Below, piece by piece: positions 4,052 to 58,837 of a DNA stretch of 64,000 nt (position 1 is its first letter; each line of letters starts with the position of its first letter). Position numbers and translations under genes: made by a program. The DNA comes from Lachnospiraceae bacterium (GTDB lineage: Bacteria > Bacillota > Clostridia > Lachnospirales > Lachnospiraceae), in the NCBI GenBank assembly GCA_017550535.1, contig JAFZOS010000065.1, positions 124,001 to 188,000 of the forward strand, read 5' to 3'. Below the pieces are notes generated by a model, which saw only the letters and a list, made by a program, of their open reading frames with translations, had not been told where the DNA came from and made no database searches.

Positions 4052-4123
4052 AATCCATGTCCTCCTTTGTATGTATCCCTTCAGTCATTCCGGGATATCC
4101 AAGCCTCCCTAAGGTCCGGCTTA

Positions 4124-4495
4124 CTATACTATGACGGCTCCGTCAATGTTAGTGAATACGTTTTCCTTGATCTCCTGCTCGTTAAGGGCTGTGATCACCG
4201 TATTGTTCTTGACATTTACTATAAAAGCCATCTGATCCATAAGTACCAGTGATTCGTTGATTCCCTTCTCATTAGCCTTCTGCATCCCTGCACTCAACCT
4301 GTCTATCTGGCTGTCGGACAATTCAATATTCCTGTCCTGAAGCCTTGTTGACGCATGCTTTGAAAACTTAAGTTCATCGAATACGTCTGCAAATGACCTT
4401 CCGCTATCCGCTTTATCCTGTACTTTTACGGGCTGCTTTAAATAGCTTCCGGCCGCCTGCTCAATGGAAGGGAATGTTCCGTTTGTGATATTCAT
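4124..4495 (-). CDS. Flagellar operon protein, TIGR02530-like
   Basis: A 123-aa protein of the small conserved family found between flgD and flgE in Gram-positive flagellar operons (named flagellar operon protein, TIGR02530). Family features are KFSKHASTRLQDRNIELS, then a helix, then AFIVNVKNNTVITAL. It has no signal peptide or membrane segment. Its role is not settled; the position suggests hook assembly. It lies 72 bp upstream of flgE and 45 bp behind flgD. Confidence 0.85.
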   Translation of the reverse strand: MNITNGTFPSIEQAAGSYLKQPVKVQDKADSGRSFADVFDELKFSKHASTRLQDRNIELSDSQIDRLSAGMQKANEKGINESLVLMDQMAFIVNVKNNTVITALNEQEIKENVFTNIDGAVIV

Positions 4496-4540
4496 CGGTA
4501 TTCCTCCTTCGCAAGTTTATTCGGGCCGCTTCATCAAGCT

Positions 4541-5206: not shown

Positions 5207-5232
5207 TCTATCACTCCTTTCTTAATAATGAT

Positions 5233-21470: not shown

Positions 21471-24400
21471 TTACATGTATTCTTTGATAAATTTCTCAAA
21501 ATCCTCAACAGGAATAGGCTTTGAATAGTAATACCCCTGCGCCATGTCACAGTCTATCGATCTTAAGAATTCAAGCTGTTCCACGGTCTCTACTCCTTCG
21601 GCGATAACATCAAGTCCTATCATCTTTGCCATCCTTACGGATGATTCAACGATTATCTTACCCCTCTCCGTTGACATGATCTCGTCCAAAAAGAACCTGT
21701 CGATCTTCATGGTATCTATCGGAGCCTTTCTAAGCATATTCAGTGATGAATATCCGGAACCGAAATCATCCATCAGTATCCTGAATCCCCTGCTCTTAAG
21801 CTCTCCCATCTCTTCGAACAGCTCGGTTACGTCCTCGAGGAACAGGTTCTCGGTTATCTCGATCTCAAGGTACCTGCTGTCGAAACCGTATTTATCAACA
21901 AGACCCGTCAATATCTTTACTATATCCGTTTGTCCCACATGTCTCCTGGATACATTTACCGATATAGGAAGCATTATATCCCGTTTCTGAAGATCAACGA
22001 TATATTTGCAGGCTTCCTCCCACATGAACAGATCCAGCCTTGTAATGAACCCGTTATCTTCGAACAGCGAAAGGAAATTGGCCGGAACAAGTATTCCCTT
22101 TACCGGATGCTTCCAGCGTACAAGTGCCTCCGCACCGCATATCTTACCGGTCTTAAGATCGATCTGCGGCTGCAGGAACATGACAAACTCGTTGTTTGCA
22201 AGCGCCTGCTCCATCTGATTCTCAATATCGGCCTGTTCACGCATCTTTAGACGGATCACGTCATCATAAACCGCATAATTACTCAATGCGCTTCCCTTAA
22301 CCTGCTTCTTTACCGCCCTGGCTCTGTCGCACATGAGCCTGACGGGTATATCGATATCAACGATCTTATATATCCCGTATACCAGCGATAATGTTGCAGG
22401 CATATCCGGAACATTCTTTATAGCCTTGCTAAGTTCCGTCATAAAATCAATGATATCCTGCTCACTTTCATACTCAAACAAAAGGCTGAACATATCTGCC
22501 TGGTATCGGCAGGCAGGCAGCTCCCTCGGTAGAAGATGCCGGATCTGTCCGCCAAGTTCCTTAAGGCATTTGTTTCCGGAATCAATACCGCAGCGGTCAT
22601 TTATCAGCCTGAACTTATCGATATCAACCGCTATGATCGCAAGCTTTTTATCATCGTTAAGATGAATATAGCTGTCGGCCTTGCGGTAGAATGAATCGGC
22701 ATTCAGCAGACCCGTGAGAGAGTCATAATCAGCGCGGTATTCCATCTCACCCTTGATCCGCATTTCCGCATCCACATTCTGAAACGTTGCAAGATATCGT
22801 ACAGGCACATTATTGAGTCCGTGCAGAGGCTGTATGATGATCGTATACCATACCGGAACTTTGTTTTTGTTGTAAAGCCTTACGGTTGCTTTATGGGTAT
22901 TACCCGTTTTCCTGATCTTTTCTATGAACTCCCTGAAAAAGAGAGCATCGTCTTCATAGGGCTTGAGCATATCGATCACAGCCCACGTACCCTTTAAGCT
23001 TTTCTTGTCAATATCAAAAATCTCATCAAACATGGGACAGATATAGAATGTATCATCGGTCACATAGTACTCGTATACGAGGATTCCCGTCATCTCGTTT
23101 ACATTCTCATGTCTCTCATTGCTGAGCGCCATCTCCTTTAAGATATCGCTCTTCTGCTTCATGATCTCATATTTGACCTTGGTCTCGATGTTCTCAAGGC
23201 GATGTTTCATATATTCATTGACATTTAAAAATATTATAAGAGCCCTGCCCTCATCGGGACCCTGCAGAACGGAATACAGGTTATACCATTCGTACTCCCC
23301 TTCGATATTAAGGAGCCTCACCTCACGACACAGCATCTGTGTTCCCAACTGCCTTGCCTGCTTAAGGTATTTGGGATCCGTCGCCTCATTAAATGCTCCC
23401 TTATCCTCGGCGCAGATGACATTACAGGCGAAATATTCCCTAAGTGTCTGATAGTTCTTAATCCGCCTGTCCATGATGCTCTTTATGTTTTCTTCCTTTA
23501 TCCTGATGCAGCTGTTTTTATATATGTCAACATCCCATATGATATCCTGCATCGAGATAACCGCAGCACGTGCACGGTTTTTGCTTTCGTTTATCCTCTC
23601 TTCCTGCTTTTCGACATTTTCCTTTATCGAAGCGATGAGATATATGTTCCTTCCGTTCCTTAAGCTTATCCTTGTAGTCCTTGACTGGACCGAGCAGCGC
23701 AGTGTCGGTGAATAGATCTCGGAATCATATGACGATTCATCCTTGCCCATGCGCCTTATCGGACAATCGGGACACGGTTCTTTATACCCCTTGCCCTGCT
23801 CATAGCACAATCCCGTCCGCTCACACTGAAGCCTGTCGCTAAGCATCTCGTTCTGATAAAGTATATGATAATCCTCGTCGACTGCATAAGCCCAGCTGCA
23901 CATCGGATCAAGGATATTGGTCACAAGTTCCATCTCCCTGGTGGAAAGGATGGGATCTGCCTTCTTGTCAGCCCTCTCCATATTGTCATTGTACATGACA
24001 TAAGTGTCCTTGCCCGCATTCTTGGCATCCTTAAGGGCAGCAAGCGCATGTTCCAAAAGGATATCCACCGAAGAATCACCCTTCTTAAGAGCGCTTATAC
24101 CGACAGACACGGTAACTACCTTGTCAAGCTCGCCCCATACTTCCTTGACCGTTTTGCACACATAAACAGCCCGTTCTTCCAAAATAGCCGTACTGCGGAT
24201 ACCCTTCATAAGTACGGCAAACCTGTCATTTCCGACACGGCCTATGATATCCGAGCCCCTGAACGTACGCTTTATTATCCTCGCAAGTTCGACCAATACT
24301 CCGTCAGCACTTACGCCGCTGTTCATTTCCTTCCACTCATCAAAATCATCTATATCTATAAGCATGAGATTCGGGATCGTTCCCTTGCCCATTGAGCTTA

Positions 24401-24872
24401 AGTATTCACCGGCGAAACTCATAAATGCCTCACGGTTTAATACATGCGTAAGATTATCCTTATTCTTCTCAGCCTCCTCGCTCCTGCTCTTTGTCTCATC
24501 ATCTATGTACGTCATGGTTCCGTAAAGTACATCCGAAGCCTGCGTCTCATCATCGGGATCCATCAAACGTCCCTTTAGCTGATACCAGAAATACTCCCCC
24601 TTTATATCGAGGAACCTGATATACTCCATTTTAACCTTGCCTTCTTCCGGCGGGTTCGTAAAGAAAGCTATAGCCTTACTGGCATCGTCATCGTGCACCC
24701 TTCCGCGAATGCTTATATTTCCGGCAAACGATGAAACTTCACGCGGAATAGAGATATACCTGTCAACATTATCGGAAAACCTGATAGTATCATTTTTGAT
24801 ATCATATTCAAAAATGATTATATCATTTATATCCATTGCATTCTGTATCAGATCGTCATTGAATCTACTCAT
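21471..24872 (-). CDS. Multi-PAS protein with two degenerate GGDEF domains and an EAL phosphodiesterase domain
   Basis: A 1133-aa cytoplasmic protein. Order: PAS (about 10-130), GGDEF (about 140-300; signature RVGNDRF), PAS with a cysteine cluster (about 315-425), two more PAS-like domains (about 435-700), a second GGDEF (about 705-865; signature YQADMF), and EAL (about 870-1133). Both GGDEF motifs are broken. The EAL domain keeps QPQIDLKTGKICGAEALVRW, the ITENLFLED acid, DDFGSGYSSLNML and IAEGVETVEQL, so I expect a cyclic-di-GMP phosphodiesterase whose GGDEF domains only bind nucleotide or dimerise. The second PAS contains C-CYEQ-CPDCP cysteines that could hold a metal. It has its own promoter embedded in the hemW terminator. 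Confidence 0.88.
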   Translation of the reverse strand: MSRFNDDLIQNAMDINDIIIFEYDIKNDTIRFSDNVDRYISIPREVSSFAGNISIRGRVHDDDASKAIAFFTNPPEEGKVKMEYIRFLDIKGEYFWYQLKGRLMDPDDETQASDVLYGTMTYIDDETKSRSEEAEKNKDNLTHVLNREAFMSFAGEYLSSMGKGTIPNLMLIDIDDFDEWKEMNSGVSADGVLVELARIIKRTFRGSDIIGRVGNDRFAVLMKGIRSTAILEERAVYVCKTVKEVWGELDKVVTVSVGISALKKGDSSVDILLEHALAALKDAKNAGKDTYVMYNDNMERADKKADPILSTREMELVTNILDPMCSWAYAVDEDYHILYQNEMLSDRLQCERTGLCYEQGKGYKEPCPDCPIRRMGKDESSYDSEIYSPTLRCSVQSRTTRISLRNGRNIYLIASIKENVEKQEERINESKNRARAAVISMQDIIWDVDIYKNSCIRIKEENIKSIMDRRIKNYQTLREYFACNVICAEDKGAFNEATDPKYLKQARQLGTQMLCREVRLLNIEGEYEWYNLYSVLQGPDEGRALIIFLNVNEYMKHRLENIETKVKYEIMKQKSDILKEMALSNERHENVNEMTGILVYEYYVTDDTFYICPMFDEIFDIDKKSLKGTWAVIDMLKPYEDDALFFREFIEKIRKTGNTHKATVRLYNKNKVPVWYTIIIQPLHGLNNVPVRYLATFQNVDAEMRIKGEMEYRADYDSLTGLLNADSFYRKADSYIHLNDDKKLAIIAVDIDKFRLINDRCGIDSGNKCLKELGGQIRHLLPRELPACRYQADMFSLLFEYESEQDIIDFMTELSKAIKNVPDMPATLSLVYGIYKIVDIDIPVRLMCDRARAVKKQVKGSALSNYAVYDDVIRLKMREQADIENQMEQALANNEFVMFLQPQIDLKTGKICGAEALVRWKHPVKGILVPANFLSLFEDNGFITRLDLFMWEEACKYIVDLQKRDIMLPISVNVSRRHVGQTDIVKILTGLVDKYGFDSRYLEIEITENLFLEDVTELFEEMGELKSRGFRILMDDFGSGYSSLNMLRKAPIDTMKIDRFFLDEIMSTERGKIIVESSVRMAKMIGLDVIAEGVETVEQLEFLRSIDCDMAQGYYYSKPIPVEDFEKFIKEYM

Positions 24873-31941: not shown

Positions 31942-32298
31942 ATGCAGGAAAAACGCAAGGAAAAAAGAATACCGATCGACATCAAACTGTCGGTATCGGA
32001 CCTGTATCCCGAGGACGTTACCGGAATGATCGAGGTATCATCCCCGATAGAAGTAACCGATATCTCACCAAAAGGCATCGGGTTCCTGTGCGATGCAGTT
32101 CTCCCGGTAGGTTTTATATTTATTGCCAATATCGAGCTGGACAAAGCACTGCCCCAGATAATAACGGATGTTCGTATCATAAGGAGTCAGGCGGTAGAAA
32201 ACGGGCTTTATCGTTACGGCAGTGAATTCGTATCCATATCACCCCGTGTTGCCAAGATGCTTGATGACTTTGAATCAGGTGGAAAGTCTTCCATATAA
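31942..32298 (+). CDS. PilZ domain cyclic-di-GMP receptor protein
   Basis: A 118-aa single-domain protein. It carries both halves of the cyclic-di-GMP site: RKEKR (RxxxR) near the N-terminus and DISPKGIGF (D/NxSxxG) about 40 residues later. The rest is the PilZ beta-barrel and a C-terminal helix (RVAKMLDDFE). The frame is open far upstream through purB, but the ATG at 31942 follows GAGG and matches the domain start. Genes for cyclases and an EAL protein elsewhere in the window make a working receptor plausible. Its output partner is unknown. Confidence 0.88.
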   Translation: MQEKRKEKRIPIDIKLSVSDLYPEDVTGMIEVSSPIEVTDISPKGIGFLCDAVLPVGFIFIANIELDKALPQIITDVRIIRSQAVENGLYRYGSEFVSISPRVAKMLDDFESGGKSSI

Positions 32299-32342: not shown

Positions 32343-33572
32343 TCAAGGATTCTCTTCGTATTCACTGACTATAGCAAGTATCTCACCGCTGAACCTGGGA
32401 TACTCCCTGACTATGCCTTCTATCTCATTCTTTGAAAGCTCAAGGCTTAAGTTGTTGAAATCAATTCCCTTTTTGATCTTCTTGCGCTGGATGATGAGCC
32501 CCCGCCTCATTTCCCGCATTTCATCGTCATCCGTCAGCAGGTCCGGCTTAAAAATAAACATCGCGGGATCGTTAAGCCTGTAATTCTTAAGTTCGTCAGC
32601 CAGTTCCTTTCGAGCCTTCTCAAGCTTTGCGGCGACCTCCTCCGAATGATTCCTTGCTTTCTTTTCCTCAAGATACTTCTCCCACATATAGCTTAACTCG
32701 TAGGAGTTGTTAACCTTGTATTTTGAATAATAAAAATCAATAAGATTGGTGGCATTTACATACTTTATCTTTACACTGTTCTGAAGGTTTATCGCCCTGT
32801 TTATCTTTCGTTCGGCACTAAGCTGTGCATCCTGGGCATTCTTGTAGCTTACAAACACACCGGTCATCGCTATGCCAAGGAGGGCAAGAACTATATAATA
32901 ACCGATCCTCACATCAAATTTAAGTGTTATCCTGAGGGCAAAGAGCAGAGCCATTGCAAGTGCCGAGACAAAAATGCATATAAACAGCAGTGCCTTTGCA
33001 TTTGCGGCTTTTTCCTTTTCCTCCTTCCTCTGATATGCAAGCGCCCCCTTCTCACCCTCAAGAAGGTTTAAGTCCCGCTTGACGGTCATCTGGTATTCCT
33101 CTTCCTTGCGCAGCTTCTTTAAGATATCGGGAACCTCGTCCTCAATCCTTTCCATATCACGGTACTGTGATTCTGTTATCTTGGAAAGGGGACGGACATA
33201 CTGCTTTTCATCCTCTTCTATCTTTTCGATCCTCTTTGCAAGGCGTTCAAGCTCGCTGTATCTTGTTAAGGGAAGCGAGCATATCTCATCTATATCAGCA
33301 AGCTGCTGGGTCACCCGCTCATACTCTTTTTTCTGCCCCTCCATATCATCGGAAGCGGCCTTCATCTGCTCACACTTATCCCTTATATACAGCTCGCGTT
33401 CCCTGTAATCAAGGATATTGATGTCAGCCAGCCTTACCGGGGCGCGTTTTAAACCCTCGGTTATCTCCTCAGCGTCCGCATTATCAGGCTGCATGCCGAT
33501 ACCGAAATCCAGCTCGTCATCGTCATCATCCAAAAAACCAAGTTTTTCAAGAATAAAGTCAAATATACGCAC
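32343..33572 (-). CDS. Coiled-coil protein with two central membrane helices, unknown function
   Basis: A 409-aa protein I do not recognise. An acidic N-terminus (FLDDDDDELDFG) is followed by a long coiled coil (about 60-190), two adjacent membrane helices (about 195-248: LLFICIFVSALAMALLF and YYIVLALLGIAMTGVFV), a second coiled coil (about 250-330) and a basic and acidic C-terminus (LIIQRKKIKKGIDF). The hairpin topology puts both coiled coils on the same, probably cytoplasmic, side. Start is GTG behind GGGAG. It is the last gene of a four-gene operon and may be the membrane anchor of that system. Confidence 0.8.
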   Translation of the reverse strand: MRIFDFILEKLGFLDDDDDELDFGIGMQPDNADAEEITEGLKRAPVRLADINILDYRERELYIRDKCEQMKAASDDMEGQKKEYERVTQQLADIDEICSLPLTRYSELERLAKRIEKIEEDEKQYVRPLSKITESQYRDMERIEDEVPDILKKLRKEEEYQMTVKRDLNLLEGEKGALAYQRKEEKEKAANAKALLFICIFVSALAMALLFALRITLKFDVRIGYYIVLALLGIAMTGVFVSYKNAQDAQLSAERKINRAINLQNSVKIKYVNATNLIDFYYSKYKVNNSYELSYMWEKYLEEKKARNHSEEVAAKLEKARKELADELKNYRLNDPAMFIFKPDLLTDDDEMREMRRGLIIQRKKIKKGIDFNNLSLELSKNEIEGIVREYPRFSGEILAIVSEYEENP

Positions 33573-33589
33573 GTTTGTCTCCCGGCTTA

Positions 33590-34426
33590 TCAGGTCAGGC
33601 TCATCCTGTATTCACGCTTCCACATATCGAGCGTTGCATCAAGTGCCTCATAATACCTTCCCACCATACCGCTCTCTTTAAGGCCTTTGAGTTCCGCCAG
33701 CTGCCTTGCATACTTATTAGCGGAACCAATATAATCATCCCTTGTTTCAAGAATGGCTTCCGCCGCGCTTATCACACGCTCGGAATAACCGCACCGCAGT
33801 ATCATCCTGTCGTATTTCTCTTTAGTCATGTAAAGGTTACAGCTCACAATATGCATTATAAGGCTCTCATCATCCATATTAAGCCGATATGCCTCCATGT
33901 AATAATCGGCGGCCTTTTCATAAAGAAGGAGCTTGGCATATGCCGTTCCCATATTATGGAGCACTGCTGCATAGAGTATCGGCTCCGCATCCACGTCTAT
34001 CTTCTTTAATGTTCCCGCATATTCGTCAATAGCCCTTGCAAACTTACGGGCTTTAAGCAGGTTATCACCCCTGCTCTTATGCTTTCTTGCAGGACTAAGG
34101 CCCGCACTCTCAACGAGGATCTGCCTGATATTGCGCATTTCATCGGCATCACAGTAACCTATCTCCTCAAGGATAGCCATGACAAAATCACTCAGATTTC
34201 CCTTGTCGCGCAGTATCACCCTTAATCTGTCCGCCAGTTCCGTAAGTTCGAGCTGCTTATCCAGAAAATCACACAGCCGCTCATCCATAAAGTCATGATC
34301 CAGGGTATGTGCATTCTGCGCTATAAGGTAACACAGCTCTTCACCCGAGTATATGTTTATTCCTAGGCCGACTACGTTATACGGCCTTTCCGTCGTGCTC
34401 ATATGGCACAATATAAGATTCGTCAT
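33590..34426 (-). CDS. TPR-repeat protein, unknown function
   Basis: A 278-aa soluble protein. The N-terminal about 110 residues (YNVVGLGINIYSGEELCYLI) match no domain I know. The C-terminal part carries two tetratricopeptide-like helix pairs, visible in NLLKARKFARAIDEYAGTL and NMGTAYAKLLLYEKAADYYM. TPR domains bind peptide tails, including those of Hsp70 chaperones, and the gene directly upstream (10-bp gap) encodes an Hsp70-like protein, so a co-chaperone or adaptor role is my inference. The ATG follows GAGGA. Confidence 0.8.
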   Translation of the reverse strand: MTNLILCHMSTTERPYNVVGLGINIYSGEELCYLIAQNAHTLDHDFMDERLCDFLDKQLELTELADRLRVILRDKGNLSDFVMAILEEIGYCDADEMRNIRQILVESAGLSPARKHKSRGDNLLKARKFARAIDEYAGTLKKIDVDAEPILYAAVLHNMGTAYAKLLLYEKAADYYMEAYRLNMDDESLIMHIVSCNLYMTKEKYDRMILRCGYSERVISAAEAILETRDDYIGSANKYARQLAELKGLKESGMVGRYYEALDATLDMWKREYRMSLT

Positions 34427-34436
34427 ATATGATTCC

Positions 34437-35816
34437 TCATACTATCCGTACTTCTTTTTCCCATTTAAGAGAAGATGAGGGAAATATCTCTCCGAAGCCC
34501 ATGTCCTCTATCCTTATCTTAAGAGTGTCCCCTGAAGTGAAGCTGACCCGCATCTTAAGCCTTGTTGTCTTTTCGGGACGGTTGGGCAGTCCGTCAAGGT
34601 TGACCGTTATATTCCTTACTTCCTTACCGTCAAGCGGCGTCACAAGCATATCCACCTTGCTGCCCTGTGTAAGAAGGAATTCCACTACCGTGCTTATATC
34701 AAACCAGTTCTCACCACCGTCGGCCAGTGCAATGTACTCCTCCTTATCCTTACGCTTCATGTTCATGCCAAGATTGAACTGGAGCTTATCCTTGCCAAGA
34801 AATATGTATTTACTGTTCAGTTCCGTAGGCTTTAACTTGTCCATTCCATAGTAGCATGCGCCTTTTGAATACATATTCTTTCCCTGGAACACACGTCGGC
34901 CCATGCACAGAAATCCTATCGTTTTCTTGCACCATTCACCCTCAAAACCATCACCGAGAAGATATGCCGACCTTATAGGCCTCGACATAAGAAAATCATG
35001 GAGCAGTTCCTGCAGCGCCTCATCCATCCTGTCTATTTCTTCGCCGGCCGTTTCCGCTATGGCGCCTTCCTCTTCCGATCCGTCCTTATCACCGGTAATG
35101 TCATTATTTTCATCAACGGCTTCTTCCTCATCGTCATATTTTTCATCCAAAACCCTTCCGGGCTCCGGAACCATTACGTTATCAAAGGTATATTCATCTA
35201 TAACACCGACTATGGGAGTAGTCCTGTGGTTCATCTTAAGATGATAGCAGGTCATGTTCTTTCCGTTATGATCAAACACTGCACTTTCCGTCTCCCAAAG
35301 CTCGGCCTGCTGATGGATCATGTAATAATATACGCTTTCGCTGTAGCTTTGAAACATGATCCTCTCGCGCTCTACCGGTATGGCTGCCGAAACCCTCTCT
35401 AGCACCTTGATCATATCCCTGTCAAGAGAAGGTACGGTAAAAATGAAGTTCTCGATCTGTTCCATTGGAACATAGACCGACAGAAGGTTTAGCGACTTCC
35501 TTACAAACAGGATCAAAAGGTCCAGTCCCTCAAATGATTCTCCGTCTATCATTATCGAGCTTTCGTTTACTGCCATGCTTAAAAGCTTTCCCGCCTCGGC
35601 TTCCCCCTCGTTTAAGATAAGCCTCTTGGCTTCCGTGCCGAAACTCCATTGGTTGACCTTCCGGCGCTTGCATAACAGGGTAGGAATGCCCAGCCTCTCG
35701 TTTTCACCATCCGAAACCAGAGTTTTGGGGGCATCGTTATCCAATTCAAAATAGCTGATCTGTGTAAGGGTATCATTAAGATCATACCCGACCACATATC
35801 TTGTACCGGTATCCAT
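34437..35816 (-). CDS. Hsp70-like (ASKHA fold) protein of unknown function, DUF5716-like
   Basis: A 459-aa protein. The opening VVGYDLNDTLTQISYFEL aligns with the Hsp70 phosphate-1 motif (GIDLGTT), NERLGIPTLL with the Hsp70 TPS strand, NQWSFGTEAKR with VGxxAK, ENFIFTVPSLDRDM with the VITVPAYF segment, and SAYLLGDGFEGEW with the LVGG adenosine motif. The phosphate-2 motif DLGGGT is replaced by FDHNGKNMTCYHL, and an acidic insert of about 50 residues interrupts the second lobe. The last 100 residues resemble the Hsp70 substrate-binding beta domain (GKEVRNITVNLDGLP). I believe databases hold this as DUF5716; I cannot confirm that here. Whether it hydrolyses ATP is doubtful. Confidence 0.75.
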   Translation of the reverse strand: MDTGTRYVVGYDLNDTLTQISYFELDNDAPKTLVSDGENERLGIPTLLCKRRKVNQWSFGTEAKRLILNEGEAEAGKLLSMAVNESSIMIDGESFEGLDLLILFVRKSLNLLSVYVPMEQIENFIFTVPSLDRDMIKVLERVSAAIPVERERIMFQSYSESVYYYMIHQQAELWETESAVFDHNGKNMTCYHLKMNHRTTPIVGVIDEYTFDNVMVPEPGRVLDEKYDDEEEAVDENNDITGDKDGSEEEGAIAETAGEEIDRMDEALQELLHDFLMSRPIRSAYLLGDGFEGEWCKKTIGFLCMGRRVFQGKNMYSKGACYYGMDKLKPTELNSKYIFLGKDKLQFNLGMNMKRKDKEEYIALADGGENWFDISTVVEFLLTQGSKVDMLVTPLDGKEVRNITVNLDGLPNRPEKTTRLKMRVSFTSGDTLKIRIEDMGFGEIFPSSSLKWEKEVRIV

Positions 35817-35830
35817 CCGCCTTTATCCTT

Positions 35831-38800
35831 TCACAGAAATGAAAATGCCCTTTCGGTAAAGCATTCATCCCGTACATATTCTTCCATAAGCTGCATAAGC
35901 GTGTCATCATCCTGAAGTGTTTTGGATACTACCATATCGTTTAGCAGGGCGTAGCGCGACTCCCTTCCGTCAGCCACCACATCCGAGATGGAAACTGCAT
36001 CCGAGAATGTAAGCTCCTCGTGTCCGTCCTTTTCCTCGGTTATGTAATACTGCAGGTTCTCTCCGAAGAACAGTATGAAATCCCTTGAAAAGATCCCACC
36101 ATACATATTCCGCATTTCTTCGGTATGGTAATTATCATCTTCTTCCTCGTCCTCGATAATATAATGCAGAAGAACCCGCACATCGGGACGCGTCCTGTAT
36201 TCTATGATCGTCTTGTCATCATATACAGCTATCTCCGGCATGATATTCACAAACTCCCTGAAGAAAACAAAGTATATGTTCTCCTGGAGGAATTCCTTAA
36301 GGAAGTCGGCAAGCATCACGCCGATACGGTCATCATACTCCTTTTCATCCTCCGCATAATACTTAAGCAGAGCAAGCTTACAGGCATCGTTAAGGTCCTC
36401 ACCCCGCCTGTAATTCTTGACAAGATGCTCAAATACCCTCTTATCAAGCATCCTCTCTTTGATGAAATAGTCATATGCACAGTATGAAAGATAAGCAAGC
36501 TCAACCTTGGTGCTCGAACCCTGCTTAACATACTCCTCGAAAAGCTCCTCCTTCTCGCCGATCGTAGTCCTTGTCAGAAGCATCTGTATGATAAGCTTTT
36601 CCATCAGCTTATCGCAGTCAACATCAAACTGCCTTGCCGCCTTCCAAAGATTGCGGAGTTCCTTGGTGAGGCCATTGAAGTTTTCAACAAGGTACTGCAG
36701 CGTAAGTACGTCATACTTGCCGTTTATGAAAGCATGGTACGCCACCTTGACGAGCATAACGTCATACAGCTCCTCCTTTCGGCCTATCATATGTGAACAT
36801 ATCTTGACCACGGTCTTTACGGGTACCTTCTCGGCTCCGTATACCGTCAGGAGGTCATAAGCCTCATCATACATGCCCCTTATTACAAAATATCCGACCA
36901 GTTCAGCCCTGTCCTTGGCGCTTAATATCCTGGGATCTATACCGATAAGGAACTCATCAAGTGTTGAGAATTCATTGTTATCATAGTAATGCCTTAAGAG
37001 TTCCATCCTAACGTCACGCTTGAAGCTTTCCTTTATCTCTATGGAATCAACAAGGTTACGGCAGAAATCAACGTTTTCGGAATCAACAGTTACATAGTGG
37101 CGGCGGCCGCTGCAAAGATACAGATTAAACCCGGCATTTTCCATTACATAATTCTTGATATACGGAACATATACCGTCTCATCCATGAGCCGGTCCGCTT
37201 TATCGGGCGGCAATATCCTTCTCCTGCCATTTCCGTCCTCGGTAAATATCATATGATTGGCACTGTAAATATCAGGATAGGCGTGGTGTCCCGAAACGGG
37301 ATACAGCCTCTCGCCTTCGAATTCATCCTGGATAACGCATATCCTAATAACATCCGGATCATCAATCGTTACATCATAGGTGAACAGCAGTTTTACAAAC
37401 GAATTGACAATGCCGGGATCGATATCGTACGGGATTATCACCTGCTCATAAAGATATGCCAGATCGGCATTAATATGCCCCTTTGTCACCTGCTCCATTG
37501 CAAATGCCTTCATTGCGGGTTCATACTCCTCACACAGCCGCTGGATCTCAAACCTGTGACGGAGCATATTGGCATACAGATAAGCAAGGTGTATATGATC
37601 AAGATGATTCCTGAATCCAAAGTACATTATGACCGACTTCGGTAGAAGTTCTTCCCGGTCAAGCGGTATAGAGAGCATATAGTATTCATATAGCTTTGTT
37701 ATCCTAAGCTCCATCTGAACACCCATGCTGTACCACTCAAAGTACTTCTCGTCGGTCATGCCTTCTTTTATGAGCATCGAACATATAGCGCTTACAACAT
37801 CCGGATCTTCGTTTATCCTGTAAATCTTAATAAGGAGGTTTAAAAGATGCTCGGAAAACTCCTTGGTGCGCGCGCATATATATAAGACCTGCTTGCACAG
37901 CTCATTGTTCATAAGCCCGTTCTTGGCAGCCCATAACAGTATCTGTATCTCAAATTCGGTAAGCCTGTTAAGCGTCACAGGATTATTCACATAGTACTGA
38001 TATGCTTCCACATATATGATAGGACTCCTGCATCCGTTCCTGTACTGTTCCTCAATGAGTTCGATCTTCTGGGAATGATTGTTTGACAGCTCCTCATCAA
38101 GATAAAGCAGGGTCCAGAGTATCCTGTAATCATCCCTGTTCTGCTTATACAGTTCCTCAACCTCGGCAGCGACTTCATTTATATATGATTCATCCCTTAA
38201 ATACAGTGTTGTAAGATACAGGTAATAACTGTACATCGTAGGGTCTTTCTGCTGTATCTTAAGGTCGTTTGCAACATGATCGATTATCCACTTGGCCTCA
38301 TTAAAGCGCTGAGATACGAGCAGAAGCTGAGCCTGGAAAAGCCGGGATTCCGGATTTTTATCATCGAGCACATTAAGGCGCTCAACTATCTTAAGTGAAT
38401 CCCTTACCCATGTATTCACATTAATATGCTTGGTGCGGAATGCAATGTAGCATCGCATGAGCCGCATCGTAAGGTTTCTCTTTTCCCGCCTCTCGATCCT
38501 GAGTCCTTCATTGCTCATCCTCTTTGAAGCGATTATGGTGACTATCAGCTTCTGATGCGGGCTGTCAAATATGAGGCGTCCGAAGTTCCTTCCTTCATGG
38601 AGCTTATCTTCCTCAACAAAAAAAACAAACCTGTGGACATTGCCGAGAAAATCGTTTGAATTTAGTTTATCCTTTTCAATGCGCAGAAATGCGCAATCCG
38701 TAGATGCGGATAAGTCCACATATCCCCATGTTGACTTGCGTACAGGCAGTTCACACCTTAAGGATTCGGATATATTTGAGAATTCATGTATGGTCTTGTC

Positions 38801-39397
38801 AACGCTGTAAAGTACGGGTTGTTTTTTATTTATCGATATAAGGAACTCGTCCACACTTTCCTCGTTACCCGGAATGTTGCAGAACCCACGGTATTTTGTA
38901 AGATGGACCTTCTCATTTCCTTCAAATACCTGCGGAAACTCACGCGAATAGAAAAGAGATACCGCTTCCTCCCAGCTTAATTGTGCCTGATTTGTGAAAT
39001 GGAACAGATTTTTGACGTTCCCCATGGAACTCTTGACAATGCTTCGGACTATTGAAAAAGCAAAAGGGATATAGTATTCGCCTTTGTTGGAAACGATCTG
39101 GACATCTCCCTTTATGGTATCTCCCGGCTCGAGTCCGGTAGAGTCAAACAGAAAGGCTACGTCTATGCTCTTGGCATCAAAACTGTCAATGCGGCATACG
39201 AGGCGCATGCTTGAGGTGTAAACGTTTCCCGAAGCGGGAAGATCATCCAGACTCTCGATAGTAAAAGACCCTTCATAGATTTCGCCCACGGTGAGTACTT
39301 CTTCAATTCTTGACACAGAAAAAGAGAGCTTCCCGTTGTCATAATCGAAAAACCCGTTAAGGAGCTTGTCTACAATCTCATGCAAGAGTCTCACCAC
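35831..39397 (-). CDS. Large helical-repeat protein of unknown function, DUF5717-like
   Basis: A 1188-aa protein without signal peptide or membrane segments. Residues about 20-300 look like tandem beta-sandwich domains (VGEIYEGSFTIES, PGDTIKGDVQIVSNKGEYY) with HFTNQAQLSWEEAVSLFYS between them. Residues about 310-690 and 800-1060 are helix pairs resembling an alpha-solenoid (AQLLLVSQRFNEAKWIIDHV; SAKDRAELVGYFVIRGMYDEAYDLL). The C-terminus is acidic. I believe this is the family called DUF5717. It is first in an operon with the Hsp70-like, TPR and coiled-coil membrane proteins. The start is uncertain: GTG 39397 has a weak ribosome site, and a TTG at 39385 follows GGTGAG. Confidence 0.78.
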   Translation of the reverse strand: MVRLLHEIVDKLLNGFFDYDNGKLSFSVSRIEEVLTVGEIYEGSFTIESLDDLPASGNVYTSSMRLVCRIDSFDAKSIDVAFLFDSTGLEPGDTIKGDVQIVSNKGEYYIPFAFSIVRSIVKSSMGNVKNLFHFTNQAQLSWEEAVSLFYSREFPQVFEGNEKVHLTKYRGFCNIPGNEESVDEFLISINKKQPVLYSVDKTIHEFSNISESLRCELPVRKSTWGYVDLSASTDCAFLRIEKDKLNSNDFLGNVHRFVFFVEEDKLHEGRNFGRLIFDSPHQKLIVTIIASKRMSNEGLRIERREKRNLTMRLMRCYIAFRTKHINVNTWVRDSLKIVERLNVLDDKNPESRLFQAQLLLVSQRFNEAKWIIDHVANDLKIQQKDPTMYSYYLYLTTLYLRDESYINEVAAEVEELYKQNRDDYRILWTLLYLDEELSNNHSQKIELIEEQYRNGCRSPIIYVEAYQYYVNNPVTLNRLTEFEIQILLWAAKNGLMNNELCKQVLYICARTKEFSEHLLNLLIKIYRINEDPDVVSAICSMLIKEGMTDEKYFEWYSMGVQMELRITKLYEYYMLSIPLDREELLPKSVIMYFGFRNHLDHIHLAYLYANMLRHRFEIQRLCEEYEPAMKAFAMEQVTKGHINADLAYLYEQVIIPYDIDPGIVNSFVKLLFTYDVTIDDPDVIRICVIQDEFEGERLYPVSGHHAYPDIYSANHMIFTEDGNGRRRILPPDKADRLMDETVYVPYIKNYVMENAGFNLYLCSGRRHYVTVDSENVDFCRNLVDSIEIKESFKRDVRMELLRHYYDNNEFSTLDEFLIGIDPRILSAKDRAELVGYFVIRGMYDEAYDLLTVYGAEKVPVKTVVKICSHMIGRKEELYDVMLVKVAYHAFINGKYDVLTLQYLVENFNGLTKELRNLWKAARQFDVDCDKLMEKLIIQMLLTRTTIGEKEELFEEYVKQGSSTKVELAYLSYCAYDYFIKERMLDKRVFEHLVKNYRRGEDLNDACKLALLKYYAEDEKEYDDRIGVMLADFLKEFLQENIYFVFFREFVNIMPEIAVYDDKTIIEYRTRPDVRVLLHYIIEDEEEDDNYHTEEMRNMYGGIFSRDFILFFGENLQYYITEEKDGHEELTFSDAVSISDVVADGRESRYALLNDMVVSKTLQDDDTLMQLMEEYVRDECFTERAFSFL

Positions 39398-39404
39398 ACT
39401 TTAC

Positions 39405-39433
39405 TTGACTTTATATACAGGATTAAGTATAAC
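39405..39433 (+). promoter_or_regulatory. Promoter of the HisC/CobD-like gene
   Basis: TTGACT and TATAAC separated by 17 bp on the plus strand. Its -10 occupies nearly the same bases as the -10 of the opposing promoter at 39426-39455. Confidence 0.65.
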
Positions 39434-39455
39434 ATAACTGCAACTTGGTTAGCAA
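39426..39455 (-). promoter_or_regulatory. Promoter of the 39397-32343 operon
   Basis: On the minus strand TTGCTA and TATACT are separated by 18 bp (or TTATAC with 17 bp). The start would be near 39420, leaving a leader of about 22 nt. The -10 (39426-39431) overlaps the -10 of the divergent promoter. Confidence 0.5.
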
Positions 39456-39477: not shown

Positions 39478-40575
39478 ATGATACAGCACTCGGATCATTT
39501 CCACGGAAGCGACCTTGAAAAGATCGAAAAAATATATGGCATACCCAGGGAAAAGATAGTCAGCTTTTCGGCAAACGTAAATCCCCTCGGACTGTCCGGG
39601 CGCTTAAAAACAGAACTCGCGGAGCATCTTGACGTGATCACAGGGTATCCTGACCGCGAATATATATCGCTGCGCCGTGCGATAGCAGACTACTGCCACA
39701 GCGAACCGGAGCACGTGATCGTTGGTAACGGTTCGACCGAACTTATCTCACTGTTTATACAGATAGCTCATCCGGGAAAAGCCCTTATCGTGGGACCCAC
39801 ATATTCCGAGTATGAACGGGAAGTATCGCTCGGCGGCGGAACATCCCTTTATTTTCCGCTTAAGGAAAAGGATGACTTTGCGCTTGATTATGATAAGCTT
39901 ATAGGTCAGCTTAACGAAAGCATAGATCTGCTTATCATGTGCAACCCCAACAATCCGACATCAACCTGCATAAGCCGTCAGACCATGCGCAGCATTCTGG
40001 ATGTATGCAAGGTAAATGACATATTTGTAATGGTCGATGAAACTTACATCGAATTTACCGAGGATTACGATAATGTAAACTGCGTACCGCTGACACAGTA
40101 CTATAACAATATCATCATCCTGCGCGGTATCTCAAAGTTTTTTGCGGCTCCGGGCTTAAGGCTCGGATATGCCCTTACAGGCAATGCTGATCTTATAAAG
40201 GCAATAAACCTGCGTAAGAATCCATGGACCATCAACTCTCTTGCCGAAGAGGCCGGACGTATCATGTTCTCCGACACGGATTATATAGACAGGACAAAGG
40301 AGCTTATAGCAAAGGAGCGCTCAAGGGTGACCGGCATCCTGTCTGAAATGGGAACGGTCAGGGTTTACCGACCATCGGCCAACTTCGTACTTTCAAGGAT
40401 ACTTAAAGATGATTTAAATGCCGACATCCTGTTTGATGCCTGCATCAGGGAAGGAATGATGATCCGCAACTGCTGTACCTTTCCATTCCTTGACAACAAG
40501 TATTTCCGTATCTGCTTTATGTCTCCCGAAATGAACGATAAGCTCCTAGCAGTGATACAAAAAACACTTGGATAA
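39478..40575 (+). CDS. Fold-type I PLP aminotransferase, HisC/CobD-like
   Basis: A 365-aa pyridoxal-phosphate enzyme. The N-terminus HGSDLEKIEKIYGI then SFSANVNPLGL is the CobD/HisC-type opening. MCNPNNPTS is the substrate-loop motif and RGISKFFAAPGLRLGY contains the PLP-binding lysine. The family includes histidinol-phosphate aminotransferase (HisC) and threonine-phosphate decarboxylase (CobD). The HGxD and SANxNPLG elements lean to CobD, but no cobalamin or histidine genes are adjacent, so the substrate is open. It stands alone, divergent from the unknown operon and convergent with iorB. Confidence 0.85.
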   Translation: MIQHSDHFHGSDLEKIEKIYGIPREKIVSFSANVNPLGLSGRLKTELAEHLDVITGYPDREYISLRRAIADYCHSEPEHVIVGNGSTELISLFIQIAHPGKALIVGPTYSEYEREVSLGGGTSLYFPLKEKDDFALDYDKLIGQLNESIDLLIMCNPNNPTSTCISRQTMRSILDVCKVNDIFVMVDETYIEFTEDYDNVNCVPLTQYYNNIIILRGISKFFAAPGLRLGYALTGNADLIKAINLRKNPWTINSLAEEAGRIMFSDTDYIDRTKELIAKERSRVTGILSEMGTVRVYRPSANFVLSRILKDDLNADILFDACIREGMMIRNCCTFPFLDNKYFRICFMSPEMNDKLLAVIQKTLG

Positions 40576-51434: not shown

Positions 51435-52562
51435 TCACCCCGTAAGACGGTAAAAGTGATTATCTTCGTTAAAATGCATAAAATTATACAAAAGCAGAAC
51501 ATCCGCCCCGGAGTGTTCACCGAGCAGACCCTTTACTGAATCTGCATAGTATCTTAGATCTACCACTGTTATCCTATCATAATCATATGTCAAAAACGGG
51601 ATGAGACAGTTGGAATACGAATCCTTAAACAGGATAAGCTCATCCCGCTTATCCCGTCCGTCATCTTCAGACTCGATAATGCTTATCCCCTCGTTGCCGT
51701 GCATGAACATGGCATATTTATCATATATCTTAAGTTTTTCAAGATCATACAACGAATCATAAGCCGTGCCTCCGGCCTCAAAATGACGTACCGGAATATC
51801 ATAATAAGTAAGTATATCCGGCATGGCGCCCATACCTTTGTACTTTGAATAATATGTCCCGCAAAATCCTGAAACCTCTTCGCCTTTTGAAGAAAGGTCG
51901 TTAAGAGTCACCGGATCAAGGCCCATATCCTCACACAATCCAAGGTATCCGTAATATGCGCCCCGGGTTGTCCAATGATGATCCGTGCGGTAATAGATAT
52001 ATTCATCACTGTGTTCAGTAAGAATGCCGTACAAATCAACCGTGCTCACGTTATCGTTATCCTCAAGGCCTGCGTACAGATCATTTATATATGCCTCCTG
52101 GGATATGCCCGGAAAGCCCGCAGGTACACGGTCCTTAAGTATTTCGTACGAGTTGGGGACGATGCATACATGTATATCACGACCGGCCTGTCCGGTAAAA
52201 GCTTCTATTGCCGCCTTATTCTTATCAAGCTGTTCTCCCGTGCTTACAAGCTTCTCAAAGAGATATCCGTCCCGTCCGAGAACTATGCCGTTATTCTCAT
52301 TCTTAAGCATCACTCCGCCCGTAAATGCCTTAAGCTTTATAAGAATATCCCTGAGAGGAAGCTGTTCCTTTGTATAAAGTTCAAACTGTTCCATGAAGCT
52401 TCCGTCCGCGAGCGCCCGTATCGAAAAAGCGGGACGCTTTGCAAGATACCTGTTCTCACTTTCCGAAAACTCTCCGTCCCCGCCGAAAATATATCCTATA
52501 AACCCCGCAAGTATAAGAGCAGTCATTATAAGTGTGAACGGATGATGACGCAATGTTTTCAT
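51435..52562 (-). CDS. DHHW family membrane protein (AlgX/AlgJ-like)
   Basis: About 375 residues: one N-terminal membrane helix (HPFTLIMTALILAGFIGYIF) and an extracellular SGNH-like domain with the family motif YRTDHHWTTRGAYYGY. FKDSYSNCLIPFL near the C-terminus supplies the serine (DSYS). Related AlgX/AlgJ/DltD proteins take part in O-acetylation of exopolysaccharide. The frame opens at TTG 52595 inside the upstream gene; ATG 52562, 4 bp after the upstream stop, gives the expected short cytoplasmic lead. Confidence 0.85.
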   Translation of the reverse strand: MKTLRHHPFTLIMTALILAGFIGYIFGGDGEFSESENRYLAKRPAFSIRALADGSFMEQFELYTKEQLPLRDILIKLKAFTGGVMLKNENNGIVLGRDGYLFEKLVSTGEQLDKNKAAIEAFTGQAGRDIHVCIVPNSYEILKDRVPAGFPGISQEAYINDLYAGLEDNDNVSTVDLYGILTEHSDEYIYYRTDHHWTTRGAYYGYLGLCEDMGLDPVTLNDLSSKGEEVSGFCGTYYSKYKGMGAMPDILTYYDIPVRHFEAGGTAYDSLYDLEKLKIYDKYAMFMHGNEGISIIESEDDGRDKRDELILFKDSYSNCLIPFLTYDYDRITVVDLRYYADSVKGLLGEHSGADVLLLYNFMHFNEDNHFYRLTG

Positions 52563-52566
52563 ATCC

Positions 52567-53352
52567 TTATTCCAATCCATATCCGTGTTTTTCAAAGAAA
52601 TCTTCCAATGTCTTAATAAGATCTTTTCGCGTAGTGGATTTTAAGATATATCCCTGCGGTTTAAGTCCCATGACCCTTGCAATGCTTTCCTTTGTCCCTA
52701 TACCGGTAAGGAACATGACCGGAATTGAAGAAGTATCCGGATGGCTCCTTAACATCTCAAGTATCTTCGGTCCGTCAACCACAGGCATTTCATAATCAAG
52801 CAATATAAGATCGACGCTGTTCTTTGCCAGCCATGATATTCCCTGCATGCCGTCAGATACCATTTCCATATGGAAATTATCCTTGAGCCATTCACCGATC
52901 ATGCTTGCATATAAAGGATCGTCATCGATGATGAGTATCTTTCTCCTTTCCTTATCGGCATTCATCCTGTCTGTTTCCTTTTTGATCTCCTTAGCCAGTA
53001 CCTGAAGATCCACAGGCCTTGTAAGCCACTCATGATTCTGAAGAGCGGGAACTGTTTTGAAAAACAATTCTTTGCTGTTGTCCGATCCGATAAAGATAAG
53101 CCGGCGCTTTCTGTCACTCATCATATCGCAGATAAGTAACAGGACCTTTATTTTTTCGGCATCACCCAATATCGAATCCTGAAGATAAACAATATAAGCG
53201 TCGGTACAATCCAGTGTTGCGTTGATCGCACTTATATCATCCTCCACCAGCTGTACTTTAAATCCCTTATCCAGCAGCCCCTTTTCCATAGATTTAACGA
53301 CTACGCTGAATTGATACATCACTATTGCGACGTTTATTCCGTTTTCGCCCAT
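52567..53352 (-). CDS. Response regulator with pseudo-receiver plus receiver domain
   Basis: A 261-aa protein. The C-terminal half (about 138-258) is a full receiver domain with ILIIDDDPLYASM (acid pair), phospho-acceptor LILLDYEMPVVDG, VMFLTGIG and a C-terminal lysine in YILKSTTR. The N-terminal half (about 5-120) has a receiver-like fold but no phosphorylatable aspartate in the expected strand (DAYIVYLQDSILGD). There is no output domain, so it probably works by protein contact within the adjoining phosphorelay. It lies 34 bp behind the DegV hybrid kinase. Confidence 0.88.
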   Translation of the reverse strand: MGENGINVAIVMYQFSVVVKSMEKGLLDKGFKVQLVEDDISAINATLDCTDAYIVYLQDSILGDAEKIKVLLLICDMMSDRKRRLIFIGSDNSKELFFKTVPALQNHEWLTRPVDLQVLAKEIKKETDRMNADKERRKILIIDDDPLYASMIGEWLKDNFHMEMVSDGMQGISWLAKNSVDLILLDYEMPVVDGPKILEMLRSHPDTSSIPVMFLTGIGTKESIARVMGLKPQGYILKSTTRKDLIKTLEDFFEKHGYGLE

Positions 53353-53386
53353 TTGTATACCTCCTGTATGTTTTTATCCTTTATAC

Positions 53387-56300
53387 TTAAGCCTTATGTT
53401 CTTTAAGTAATCCGATTATCGTTTCAAATCCGTTACCGTCTGCGGCATTTATTATTTCATCCCACATTTTTCCGTATTTATCCGGGATACTGTAATCATC
53501 AAGTTCCGCAAGTACGTTCTTTATCCGTTCGGAATCCTTCTCCCCTGCAGCATCATTAAGCTCATCAATTGCCATTAAGATAAGTTCCTCATCCGCTTCG
53601 GGTTTGCCGGCCGGCTTTGCAGGAATGTCTGTATCCGGCGGCTCCGCAAACAGGTTCGCAAGTTTGATCCTGTATTCCCTGTACCGTTCCATCATTGCTT
53701 CATGATTCTCATTTATGTATCCTGTATCCTGCGACTTTCCGGCATCCTCGAGCTTAGCCGCTTCTTCGGACAGTCCGAGCGCTCCGATAAGCTTTGCGGA
53801 GCTTTTTAGGGCATGAACCTTTATAGTATAATCATTCCAGTCACCGTTCTTAAAATACGTATCGATCTCATCGGCTTTTTCGGGTATCGCATCATAGAAC
53901 ATCTTAAGTACCGTACGGAATGCTTCCTCTGAACCGCTGTTTTCTATCGCCACACTGCCGTCGATACCCTCCAGTTCATCATACCACTCACGTATCGCCG
54001 GTTTTGTTTTGATAACTTCCTCATCGGATATATGATCCTCTTGTGCATCGCCGTCATCATAATGCACATCATTCGGAAGCAGCGAACCGAGATTATATGA
54101 CCTTTGCCCCTTTTGCATATACAGTAATCCGAATGTACCGGGCCCGCTGTTCGTGGTTATGACGGAAGAAGCCTGCTGAAAGATTATATGTTCAAAATCA
54201 CACCTTTTCCGTATCTGTTTCTCGATCCATATAAGCTCTTCCTCCGGGATCGCGACATATGTTACAAACAGTATATCTGGATCCGGGTTCGCCGACAATG
54301 GAAGCGACTTTTTTATGTACCCTTCATAACAGTGCCTTATTGAACCCATCCACAGACCGCCGATACTGTATTTATCATTTTTGTACCTGAGAGCAGGGCG
54401 CAATTCCATCGAACTGGCAATACGATGGATCCGTTGTCCTACAAGCCCCTTTCTTGCCATGTATTCCGTTGTGCCCATTATAAAGCCCGAATGCATTCGT
54501 TTCTTAACATTTTCAAGCTCAGCCACTATCCTTTCTACCGGAACATTCTGCTGTGCAAGTTTATATCCGACAAGCAGCAGAAGTGCCAGACTGCTCGACA
54601 TACATTCCGAATTTATCACCGTTACGTTACCGAATGACCTTGCCGCCATCATGGCACGCTCATAGTCCTCACTCATGCTGGTCGTAAGTGCGATATAGAT
54701 CACATGATGTGCCTTCCTTAAAAGACGCCCGAAAAACTCCTCATAAGCCGCCACTTCCGGAGCCACACCTTTAGCATCACGTCCGGAATCCATATAGCGT
54801 ACGGTCTCATCGGCACTCATCTCAACATTATCCCTGAACATTCCCTCATCGGTAACAATTGTATGATACAGGATGTCGATACCCATACGTTTCCTGAGCG
54901 TCTCGGGAATATCACACAGACTGCTCGATGTAAACACAACCGGCTGTTTTCTGCTGTATCCCCTCGCAGTACTGACTTCCTCGGAATTCATCTGAACAGT
55001 CTTGTTCAGTATCAGTTTATCCTGAGGGATGAATTTTATAAGCATTTCCTCAAGCTCGCTTCCCGATACCGGCTTTACCAGATATCCGTCAAAACCGCTC
55101 GCATTATACAGTTCCCTGTTCTGTGAACCGGCATTGGCAGTAAGAACCACTGCGGGCACATCAACATTAAGCCCGCCCGTCTGGCTTCGTATATTCTTAA
55201 GGCATTCTACACCGTCCATGCCGGGCATCAGATGATCCATCAGGATCACATCATAGTGTTTCTCAAGTGTACGCCCGAGCGCTTCAGTCCCGCTTTTTGC
55301 CGTATCCACGGTCAGCCGGGTATCAGTCAATAGTTTCCTCTCCACTTCAAGGTTCATCTCATTATCATCAACTATGAGTATCCTTGCATCGGAAGCGGTG
55401 AACATATGCTCATATCTGTGATGGGTTTCTCCCTGACTGCTTATGTTTATATTTCCCAGCATCCTTGAATCCGATATTTCCTGAACAAGACTTACCGTAA
55501 ATGTCGAGCCCTGTCCGTAAGCGCTGTTCACACTGATGTCGCCTCCCATCAGATCCACCAGCTGTTTTACTATCGACAATCCAAGCCCGGTTCCTTCGAT
55601 ATTCCTGTTTTTTTCCTGATCCACCCGCTTAAAGACATTAAACAGATCCGGAAGCATTTCCTGTTTTATGCCTATTCCCGTATCTGATACCGATATAAGA
55701 AGACGGACCTTTCCTTCATCCGCATCCTCCGCTTCTATATGCAGCCCCACCGAACCCTTCTTGGTATACTTTACGGCATTGTTTAAAAGGTTGATGATTA
55801 TCTGCTTTATCCGCACCTCATCGCCGAACAGCACGGAAGGTACATGGGGATCGATATCCACATCAAATGACAGCCCCTTCTCATTGGCGCGGAGCCATAT
55901 CATGTTCACTATCTCGGACATCATGTCTCCCACCTTATAATCGACCGGAACTATATCCATACTGCCGGCTTCTATCTTTGAAAAATCAAGCAGATCGTTT
56001 ATAAGGGACAATAGCAGCCTGCCGGCTCCCTGAATGTTTGAAGCATCTCTTTTTATCTCATCGGATGCATCATCCTGCCTTAATATAACTTCGTTAAGAC
56101 CCAGGATGGAGTTTATCGGCGTTCTTATCTCATGGCTCATGCTTGAAAAAAACCTGTTCTGCGAACGATTCAGTTCCTCGGCTCTGTCAGCTTCCGCACG
56201 CGCACGCTTACTCTCTTCATTAAATATAGTCTTCTGGTACATAAGCATAACGAAGGTACATATACCGACCAGCAGAACCGATACGATTGCATCGACGAAA

Positions 56301-56770: not shown

Positions 56771-56771
56771 G

Positions 56772-58823: not shown

Positions 58824-58837
58824 CCGCAGTTCCTTTC

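Follow-up and report, generated by a model that had tools for sequence, protein, structure and literature searches.

What does a protein built like an Hsp70 chaperone do when the residues of the Hsp70 ATP cycle are gone, and why would nearly every member of a bacterial family carry it in a compact operon? The question is raised by positions 32343-39397 of a 64,000-nucleotide stretch of Lachnospiraceae bacterium DNA (contig JAFZOS010000065.1 of assembly GCA_017550535.1, positions 124,001 to 188,000), which we call the window. Four minus-strand open reading frames (ORFs) with gaps of 17, 10 and 14 bp occupy this region, and their coordinates agree with an earlier description made from the letters alone (the sequence-only reading). 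In the direction of transcription they encode a 1188-aa protein (DUF5717; 35831-39397, GTG start), a 459-aa protein (DUF5716; 34437-35816), a 278-aa tetratricopeptide repeat (TPR) protein (33590-34426) and a 409-aa membrane protein (32343-33572, GTG start). That the four genes are not chance ORFs follows from the Pfam matches of two products: the 459-aa protein belongs to PF18980 (DUF5716_C; E 2.1e-97, 326.1 bits against a gathering cut-off of 34.7), and the 1188-aa protein to PF18984 (DUF5717_N; E 3.9e-290, 965.1 bits) and PF18983 (DUF5717; E 2.2e-102, 342.8 bits), both with a cut-off of 25. The Pfam descriptions of these families name no function.

We find that the Lachnospiraceae operon is a relative, and probably a reduced one, of a larger cluster that holds several Hsp70s in other families of the order. 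With a probability of roughly 0.6, its products form a housekeeping, membrane-anchored and ATP-independent adaptor or scaffold, to which the other families add dedicated Hsp70s.

The Hsp70 fold of DUF5716

The AlphaFold2 model of the 459-aa protein, built from the window protein and 59 relatives of loci L173-L252 with bridging homologues excluded, reaches a pLDDT of 87.7 and a pTM of 0.82. Its top match in the PDB is DnaK (Foldseek: 7kru_A, E 8.5e-19, TM-score 0.60), and the best 50 of the 356 matches with E <= 0.001 are all Hsp70-family entries or complexes holding one (including 7n6g and 7sqc). Entries of the ribosome-associated complex, which contains Ssz1, are among the matches as well (6sr6, 7x3k and 5mb9). 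The model fits 7kru and 7krv, which we take to be DnaK in its domain-docked state, with TM-scores of 0.57-0.60, against 0.45 for the ADP-bound 2kho. AlphaFold2, Foldseek, HHalign and a HMMER bridge all point to a two-lobed, actin-like nucleotide-binding domain (NBD) followed by the beta part of the substrate-binding domain (SBD-beta). The lid (SBD-alpha) is absent, as the model stops at the SBD-beta strands. Computationally, DUF5716 is thus an Hsp70 by fold, and by ancestry as detailed below. The sequence-only reading had proposed the likeness, including an SBD-like C-terminus, and the predicted structure bears it out.

Within this fold the nucleotide site is degraded. Alignment and motif counts mark the phosphate-1 loop (GYDLNDTLT, residues 10-18; minus strand 35763-35789) and the adenosine loop (YLLGDGFEGEW, residues 286-296; minus strand 34929-34961) as degenerate. 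At the position of NBD subdomain IIB lies an acidic, low-confidence linker (residues ~218-262; minus strand 35031-35165), in which the pLDDT of residues 221-250 is 52-58.

The larger cluster in related families and its probable reduction

In families of the order beyond Lachnospiraceae, the homologues are part of a longer operon of up to nine genes. Under working labels, and with Pfam E-values quoted for locus L021, these comprise the N-terminal part of DUF5717 (N17, ~390 aa) and its body (B17, ~900 aa), an Hsp70 (H1, ~559 aa, 6.2e-78), a coiled-coil protein of ~600 aa with a C-terminal GrpE domain (7.1e-11), the DUF5716 homologue (D16, ~520 aa; DUF5716_C 2.2e-33 and HSP70 1.8e-14), a second Hsp70 (H3, ~546 aa, 1.6e-63), an Hsp70-vWA fusion (H4, ~692 aa, 8.1e-92 and 7.1e-10), a TPR protein (T, ~387 aa) and a homologue of the 409-aa protein (C). 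Our census covers 95 loci, namely 29 from Lachnospiraceae and 66 others from 64 genomes. Of the 66, 36 have the whole series B17-H1-GrpE-D16-H3-H4 in this order; many of the remaining loci are cut by contig ends or split (mostly in family f5), and some members were missed by the profiles. Another membrane coiled-coil protein, labelled M, occurs in 20 of the 66, mostly just upstream of N17 where it could be placed. A scan of nine cluster proteins, eight from L021 and one from L022, recognised no J-domain.

Profile comparison connects the two operon types. Lachnospiraceae DUF5716 aligns with the D16 set over 424 columns (HHalign probability 100, E 2e-57), with H4 at a probability of 91.5 (E 8.5e-7) and more weakly with H1 (82.1, E 1e-5), and D16 matches DnaK across NBD and SBD at E 1.5e-22. 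In a FastTree phylogeny of 198 proteins rooted on the DnaK of the window genome, for which long branches are a caveat, D16, DUF5716 and H3 form one clade (support 1.0), and the Lachnospiraceae DUF5716 proteins form a single clade (1.0) nested inside D16.

The ATP machinery follows the same division. All of 48 H1, 42 H3 and 38 H4 proteins keep the phosphate-1 TT, the catalytic lysine and the phosphate-2 GGT together; each of these is kept in 0 of 43 D16 and 0 of 26 Lachnospiraceae DUF5716 proteins (counted on ORFs within set length limits, 26 of the 29 Lachnospiraceae census loci, with two fusions and one short ORF omitted). The broken phosphate-2 loop noted in the sequence-only reading is therefore found in every copy counted. 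The adenosine GG survives in 36 of 43 D16 proteins and in none of the 26. Also, the segment between the phosphate-2 and adenosine motifs, whose median length is 142-179 aa for DnaK and the cluster Hsp70s and 142 aa for D16, measures 70 aa at the median (range 57-105) in Lachnospiraceae, so that NBD subdomain IIB is largely deleted. As the motifs are gone in D16 too, the larger cluster already includes an inactive Hsp70, and this inactive member is the one retained.

The link between H1 and the larger cluster holds at genome level. Of 25 carriers tested outside Lachnospiraceae, 24 have H1, among them 14 of the 15 whose fetched locus did not show it beside DUF5717; it is present in 0 of 20 genomes of the order that lack DUF5717 and in 0 of 20 Lachnospiraceae. 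The only HSP70-profile matches in the window genome are DnaK and two MreB-like proteins, as labelled by size and match. The sole H1 exception outside Lachnospiraceae, a genome of family f16 (G051), keeps N17-B17-D16, and the H4 profile gives only a DnaK-like match there; this looks like a second, separate reduction, unless the draft assembly is incomplete at this point. The tree, together with the split DUF5717 and the full cluster in other families, leads us to infer that the small Lachnospiraceae set is the derived state.

Some further observations concern the cluster itself. M has the layout transmembrane segment, loop, transmembrane pair, coiled coil (e.g. L094, L105, L106, L110, L112, L116-L119 and L165). 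An assignment to MotA/ExbB/ZorA, considered because of the transmembrane layout and the coiled-coil tail, was rejected as unproven: weak matches to the PADLOC ZorA models start after residue 180, mainly in the coiled coil, and matches of the M profile to the PDB fall in the coiled-coil part and do not name MotA, ExbB or ZorA chains. In one locus (L023 of genome G039, 3205-6384) both H4 and T are broken into a pair of ORFs; the DUF5716 homologue of this genome scores best with the Lachnospiraceae profile, and the cluster is possibly decaying and intermediate. Genome G059 has a further Hsp70-like open frame (575 aa; C9, 30678-31967) outside the cluster, in addition to DnaK and the cluster Hsp70s. 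A phylum sample searched for Hsp70-vWA proteins at E 1e-140 gave 0 of 398, with at most two candidates scored per genome shown, and shows little as it listed no known carrier.

Operon partners, conservation and genomic setting

The AlphaFold2 model of DUF5717 (pLDDT 86.5, pTM 0.59) agrees with the beta domains and long helical repeats that had been predicted from the sequence. According to our reading of its secondary structure, two N-terminal beta-sandwiches are followed by an alpha-solenoid, a central beta domain, a second solenoid and a C-terminal beta domain. The 50 Foldseek matches listed are TPR or solenoid scaffolds, chains of the ciliary central pair and an Ig module; the likeness is loose (TM-score on the query <=0.15) and no functional inference was drawn from it. 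Profiles of DUF5717 and of the 409-aa family have zero matches among PDB sequences at E 0.1.

TPR repeats in the 278-aa protein are weak in the window copy (TPR_2 at E 1.8e-4, under the Pfam cut-off) and strong in a distant homologue (E 2.7e-20), which upholds the earlier assignment. DUF5716 and the TPR protein are fused into a single ORF in seven loci (L130, L146 and L255-L259), occupying four positions in a tree of 55 proteins (branch supports not shown). These natural fusions support a direct partnership of the two proteins.

The 409-aa protein, a member of a conserved family (A10), has two transmembrane segments by hydropathy (residues 195-213, minus strand 32934-32990, and residues 223-241, minus strand 32850-32906) that are 9 residues apart. 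The flanks of this pair are richer in positive residues than the loop, which suggests that both coiled-coil ends are cytoplasmic. Of the earlier description of this protein, the membrane hairpin is confirmed by hydropathy, and the coiled coils around it are judged by eye alone. The other three window proteins show no hydrophobic segment over the hydropathy threshold. Pfam yields no family above cut-off for the 278-aa and 409-aa proteins, none of the four proteins reaches an NCBIfam cut-off, and their sole PADLOC match has an E of 0.3.

The operon is nearly universal in the family. DUF5716 is present in 147 of 150 sampled Lachnospiraceae genera, with a single match each, and in 36 of 37 genomes of the window's genus (its own included), the one miss being a 78%-complete genome. 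A scan of named genomes gave 485 relatives, the best 80 of which were kept; order and strand of the four genes are identical in 72 of these, and the remaining 8 have an operon interrupted by the end of a contig. The genes thus stay together, and their treatment as one unit in the sequence-only reading holds.

At a wider scale, DUF5717 is found in 133 of 245 genomes of an order sample (72 Lachnospiraceae and 61 from ten other families). In class samples 20 of 393 genomes pass the DUF5716 cut-off and 13 of 293 that of DUF5717_N, all Lachnospiraceae, with one weak match elsewhere in each case (2.7e-4 in another family and 8.3e-5, respectively); carriers from the order's other families do not appear in these samples, which therefore give no measure of the larger cluster. 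A phylum scan with profile A3 at E 1e-30 gave two Lachnospiraceae among 299 genomes and says little on absence, because it missed true DUF5716 carriers (G083 and G157). Eight pattern matches in viral contigs included none encoding a relative.

Upstream of the operon, a CobD/HisC-like aminotransferase gene (39478-40575, plus strand), which we do not propose as a subunit, is a conserved divergent neighbour. Of 29 Lachnospiraceae loci, 11 have it in this position, as do 19 of the 46 other-family loci with 1.5 kb or more of upstream sequence; the distance is no more than 215 bp in 17 of these 19, and 0.9 and 1.3 kb in the other two. One more match, the 20th, is a different aminotransferase. Its conservation across families supports descent at one old chromosomal locus. 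A cobalamin link through this gene was considered and set aside, the conserved position being better read as an old shared locus. The Rfam scan of the window has zero matches at the gathering threshold, and accordingly found no cobalamin riboswitch at this gene. Combined with the near-universal, single-copy presence, the conserved neighbour favours a housekeeping role.

The single promoter claimed in the sequence-only reading is not borne out. A weak sigma-70-like candidate lies 5' of the operon (39426-39455, minus strand), and is not above the regional chance rate: the consensus scan finds 14 promoter-like sites versus 15.0 +/- 3.7 in shuffles.

Elsewhere in the window, a dense signalling cluster (51435-63959, minus strand) includes a 1127-aa hybrid histidine kinase (53387-56770, minus strand) that combines HisKA, HATPase, receiver, DegV and Hpt domains in one chain, which is unusual, as well as two more hybrid histidine kinases, response regulators (one with GGDEF), an Hpt protein and a DHHW/AlgX-like protein. 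A 1133-aa protein with GGDEF, PAS and EAL domains is encoded at 21471-24872 (minus strand).

Proposed role and competing explanations

We propose that the four products would form a complex on the inner face of the cytoplasmic membrane, sharing descent with a dedicated multi-Hsp70 machine. The 409-aa coiled-coil hairpin protein would be the membrane anchor and DUF5717, with its beta-sandwiches and TPR-like solenoid, the large scaffold. DUF5716, an Hsp70 apparently unable to run the ATP cycle, could be a fixed adaptor or a module that holds peptides, and the TPR protein would bind it directly. Elsewhere in the order, two dedicated active Hsp70s, the Hsp70-vWA fusion and the GrpE-domain protein as exchange factor would join the same core. 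Lachnospiraceae are without the cluster Hsp70s and the GrpE-domain factor, so their core would either act without ATP or borrow the general DnaK. We infer the membrane location of the whole complex, the direct contact of DUF5717 and the 409-aa protein with other subunits, and the adaptor or holding mode of DUF5716. As to the process served, envelope or membrane-protein assembly is a guess, and one that is rather more probably wrong than right. The membrane-docked, chaperone-like assembly of the sequence-only reading thus survives in part: the Hsp70 fold, the TPR partner and one membrane-embedded subunit stand, an ATP-cycling chaperone is very unlikely, the motifs being lost in 26 of 26 proteins, and the envelope or secretion work it suggested would be one possible role.

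Several points weigh against our proposal. Among the 66 other-family loci, C occurs in 11 and M in 20, and the two never occur together, which means that the anchor is exchangeable or that its role is misjudged. The cluster departs from the standard Hsp70 triad, as the scanned proteins include no J-domain. A candidate defence family of PADLOC, PDC-M61B, is matched by H3 and H4 (3.9e-11 and 2e-7) over the Hsp70 region. Compared directly, Lachnospiraceae DUF5716 and DnaK are weakly similar (best PDB match at E 0.0014), and the HHalign comparisons were made without a negative-control profile. Judging from its sequence, DUF5716 may still bind ATP without hydrolysing it. Four genomes, three of the family sample and one of the genus, gave no DUF5716 match; DUF5717_N is missing from three of them as well, and DUF5717 of the fourth reaches a contig end. 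Finally, the genome that looks like a second reduction is a draft with a completeness of 96%, whose Hsp70s may be missing because of a gap in the assembly, and the TPR and 409-aa genes were not seen there beside DUF5717 and DUF5716.

The alternative that fares best, though still improbable, is a membrane signalling complex tied to cyclic-di-GMP, in which assembly and disassembly of DUF5716/DUF5717 would control an envelope or surface output. A small PilZ gene (31942-32298, plus strand, approximate start; PilZ E 5.2e-5 for 32056-32298) is convergent with the 3' end of the operon, PilZ homologues adjoin the operon in L033 and L035 and lie ~4.4 kb off in L031, and five family f5 loci have a PAS-GGDEF-type gene 3-18 bp downstream of the DUF5717 body (L097, 5881-7218, and L107, 3905-5218, where the domains were checked, as well as L102, L117 and L121). 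In addition, passages of PMC4319316 describe StkA of Myxococcus as an Hsp70-like regulator of exopolysaccharide. However, neither belongs to the conserved core: of the census loci, 3 of the 29 from Lachnospiraceae have a PilZ homologue, and the GGDEF gene occurs in 5 of the 66 others.

An active, ATP-driven Hsp70 chaperone with a TPR co-chaperone would explain the fold of DUF5716 and its natural fusion to the TPR partner. Nevertheless, all four nucleotide motifs are at 0 of 26 in Lachnospiraceae, the subdomain IIB segment is about halved, the lid is absent, and within the operon no GrpE domain or J-domain is matched in the four proteins. On sequence grounds an ATP-cycling DUF5716 is very unlikely.

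We give equally little weight to a role in biological conflict (anti-phage defence), on the pattern of the GAP1-N2 GTPase systems. Passages of PMC7159879 describe these as GTPase-centred and list HSP70, GrpE, a second HSP70 and FNIII/TPR parts, a composition that resembles the present cluster with its beta-sandwich, TPR and vWA domains; the PDC-M61B matches of H3 and H4 point the same way. These matches cover the Hsp70 region and may reflect general Hsp70 similarity, however, and the four window proteins give PADLOC nothing better than the match mentioned above. No GTPase or GAP1 was found in the nine cluster proteins scanned, and the near-universal, single-copy distribution with a conserved neighbour is housekeeping-like, unlike that of patchy defence genes. 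Least probable of all is an actin-like (FtsA/MreB-type) filament or cytoskeletal anchor: FtsA/MreB and Hsp70 have the same superfamily fold and a membrane coiled-coil partner is at hand, but the closest fold and sequence relatives found are Hsp70s (as are, alone or in complexes, all 50 fold matches listed), SBD-beta is present, and the nucleotide site is not intact.

Turning back to the ATP-independent adaptor or scaffold, yeast Ssz1 would be its closest working analogue. Passages of PMC8476630 describe Ssz1 as an Hsp70 that keeps NBD and SBD-beta, has lost SBD-alpha, hydrolyses little or no ATP and has, instead of a hydrolysis cycle, a fixed-partner role in a chaperone triad. DUF5716 resembles it in the absent lid and hydrolysis residues and, by its best fold matches, in the domain-docked shape. 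In contrast, Ssz1 is still able to bind ATP and has a J-protein as its partner, whereas DUF5716 is bacterial, has lost phosphate-loop residues and subdomain IIB, has a TPR partner with no J-domain matched in the operon, and is operon-linked to DUF5717 and a membrane protein; it would thus go further than Ssz1, the nucleotide residues being lost. The larger cluster shares motif-intact Hsp70s and a GrpE domain with the DnaK-DnaJ-GrpE system, but differs in having several Hsp70 paralogues (one vWA-fused), GrpE fused to a long coiled coil, giant scaffold and membrane coiled-coil proteins, and no recognised J-domain gene. Passages of PMC11090510 place CnuD of the CoCoNuT systems, a degenerate Hsp70-like NBD/SBD protein, near TerY-type vWA and helical-repeat proteins; the McrB GTPase, nuclease and RNA-binding domain of those systems are unmatched in the window operon.

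The open-licence PMC literature gave us no account of the operon or of the larger cluster, nor of DUF5716 as an Hsp70; for DUF5716 and DUF5717 themselves the single paper retrieved was unrelated. The terms 'von Willebrand', 'tetratricopeptide' and 'Clostridi' are absent from the main text of a review of bacterial Hsp70 machines (PMC8215388). We consider it an even bet that this is an undescribed bacterial machine, namely an Ig/TPR-solenoid scaffold that is anchored in the membrane and includes a pseudo-Hsp70, its ancestral form being powered by dedicated Hsp70s, an Hsp70-vWA protein and a GrpE-domain factor, of which Lachnospiraceae would have lost the catalytic chaperones and kept a near-universal and presumably important core.

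Lachnospiraceae dominate in human and ruminant guts, and for Pfam families without an assigned function that belong to their core genes the analysis provides a fold, an origin and a physical partner. It also offers a clear bacterial case akin to yeast Ssz1, in which the Hsp70 without enzyme activity is nevertheless the retained subunit. The order forms a natural series, from the full multi-Hsp70 cluster to the pseudo-Hsp70 core alone, a state apparently reached twice, and this series makes the role of a chaperone without ATP directly testable.

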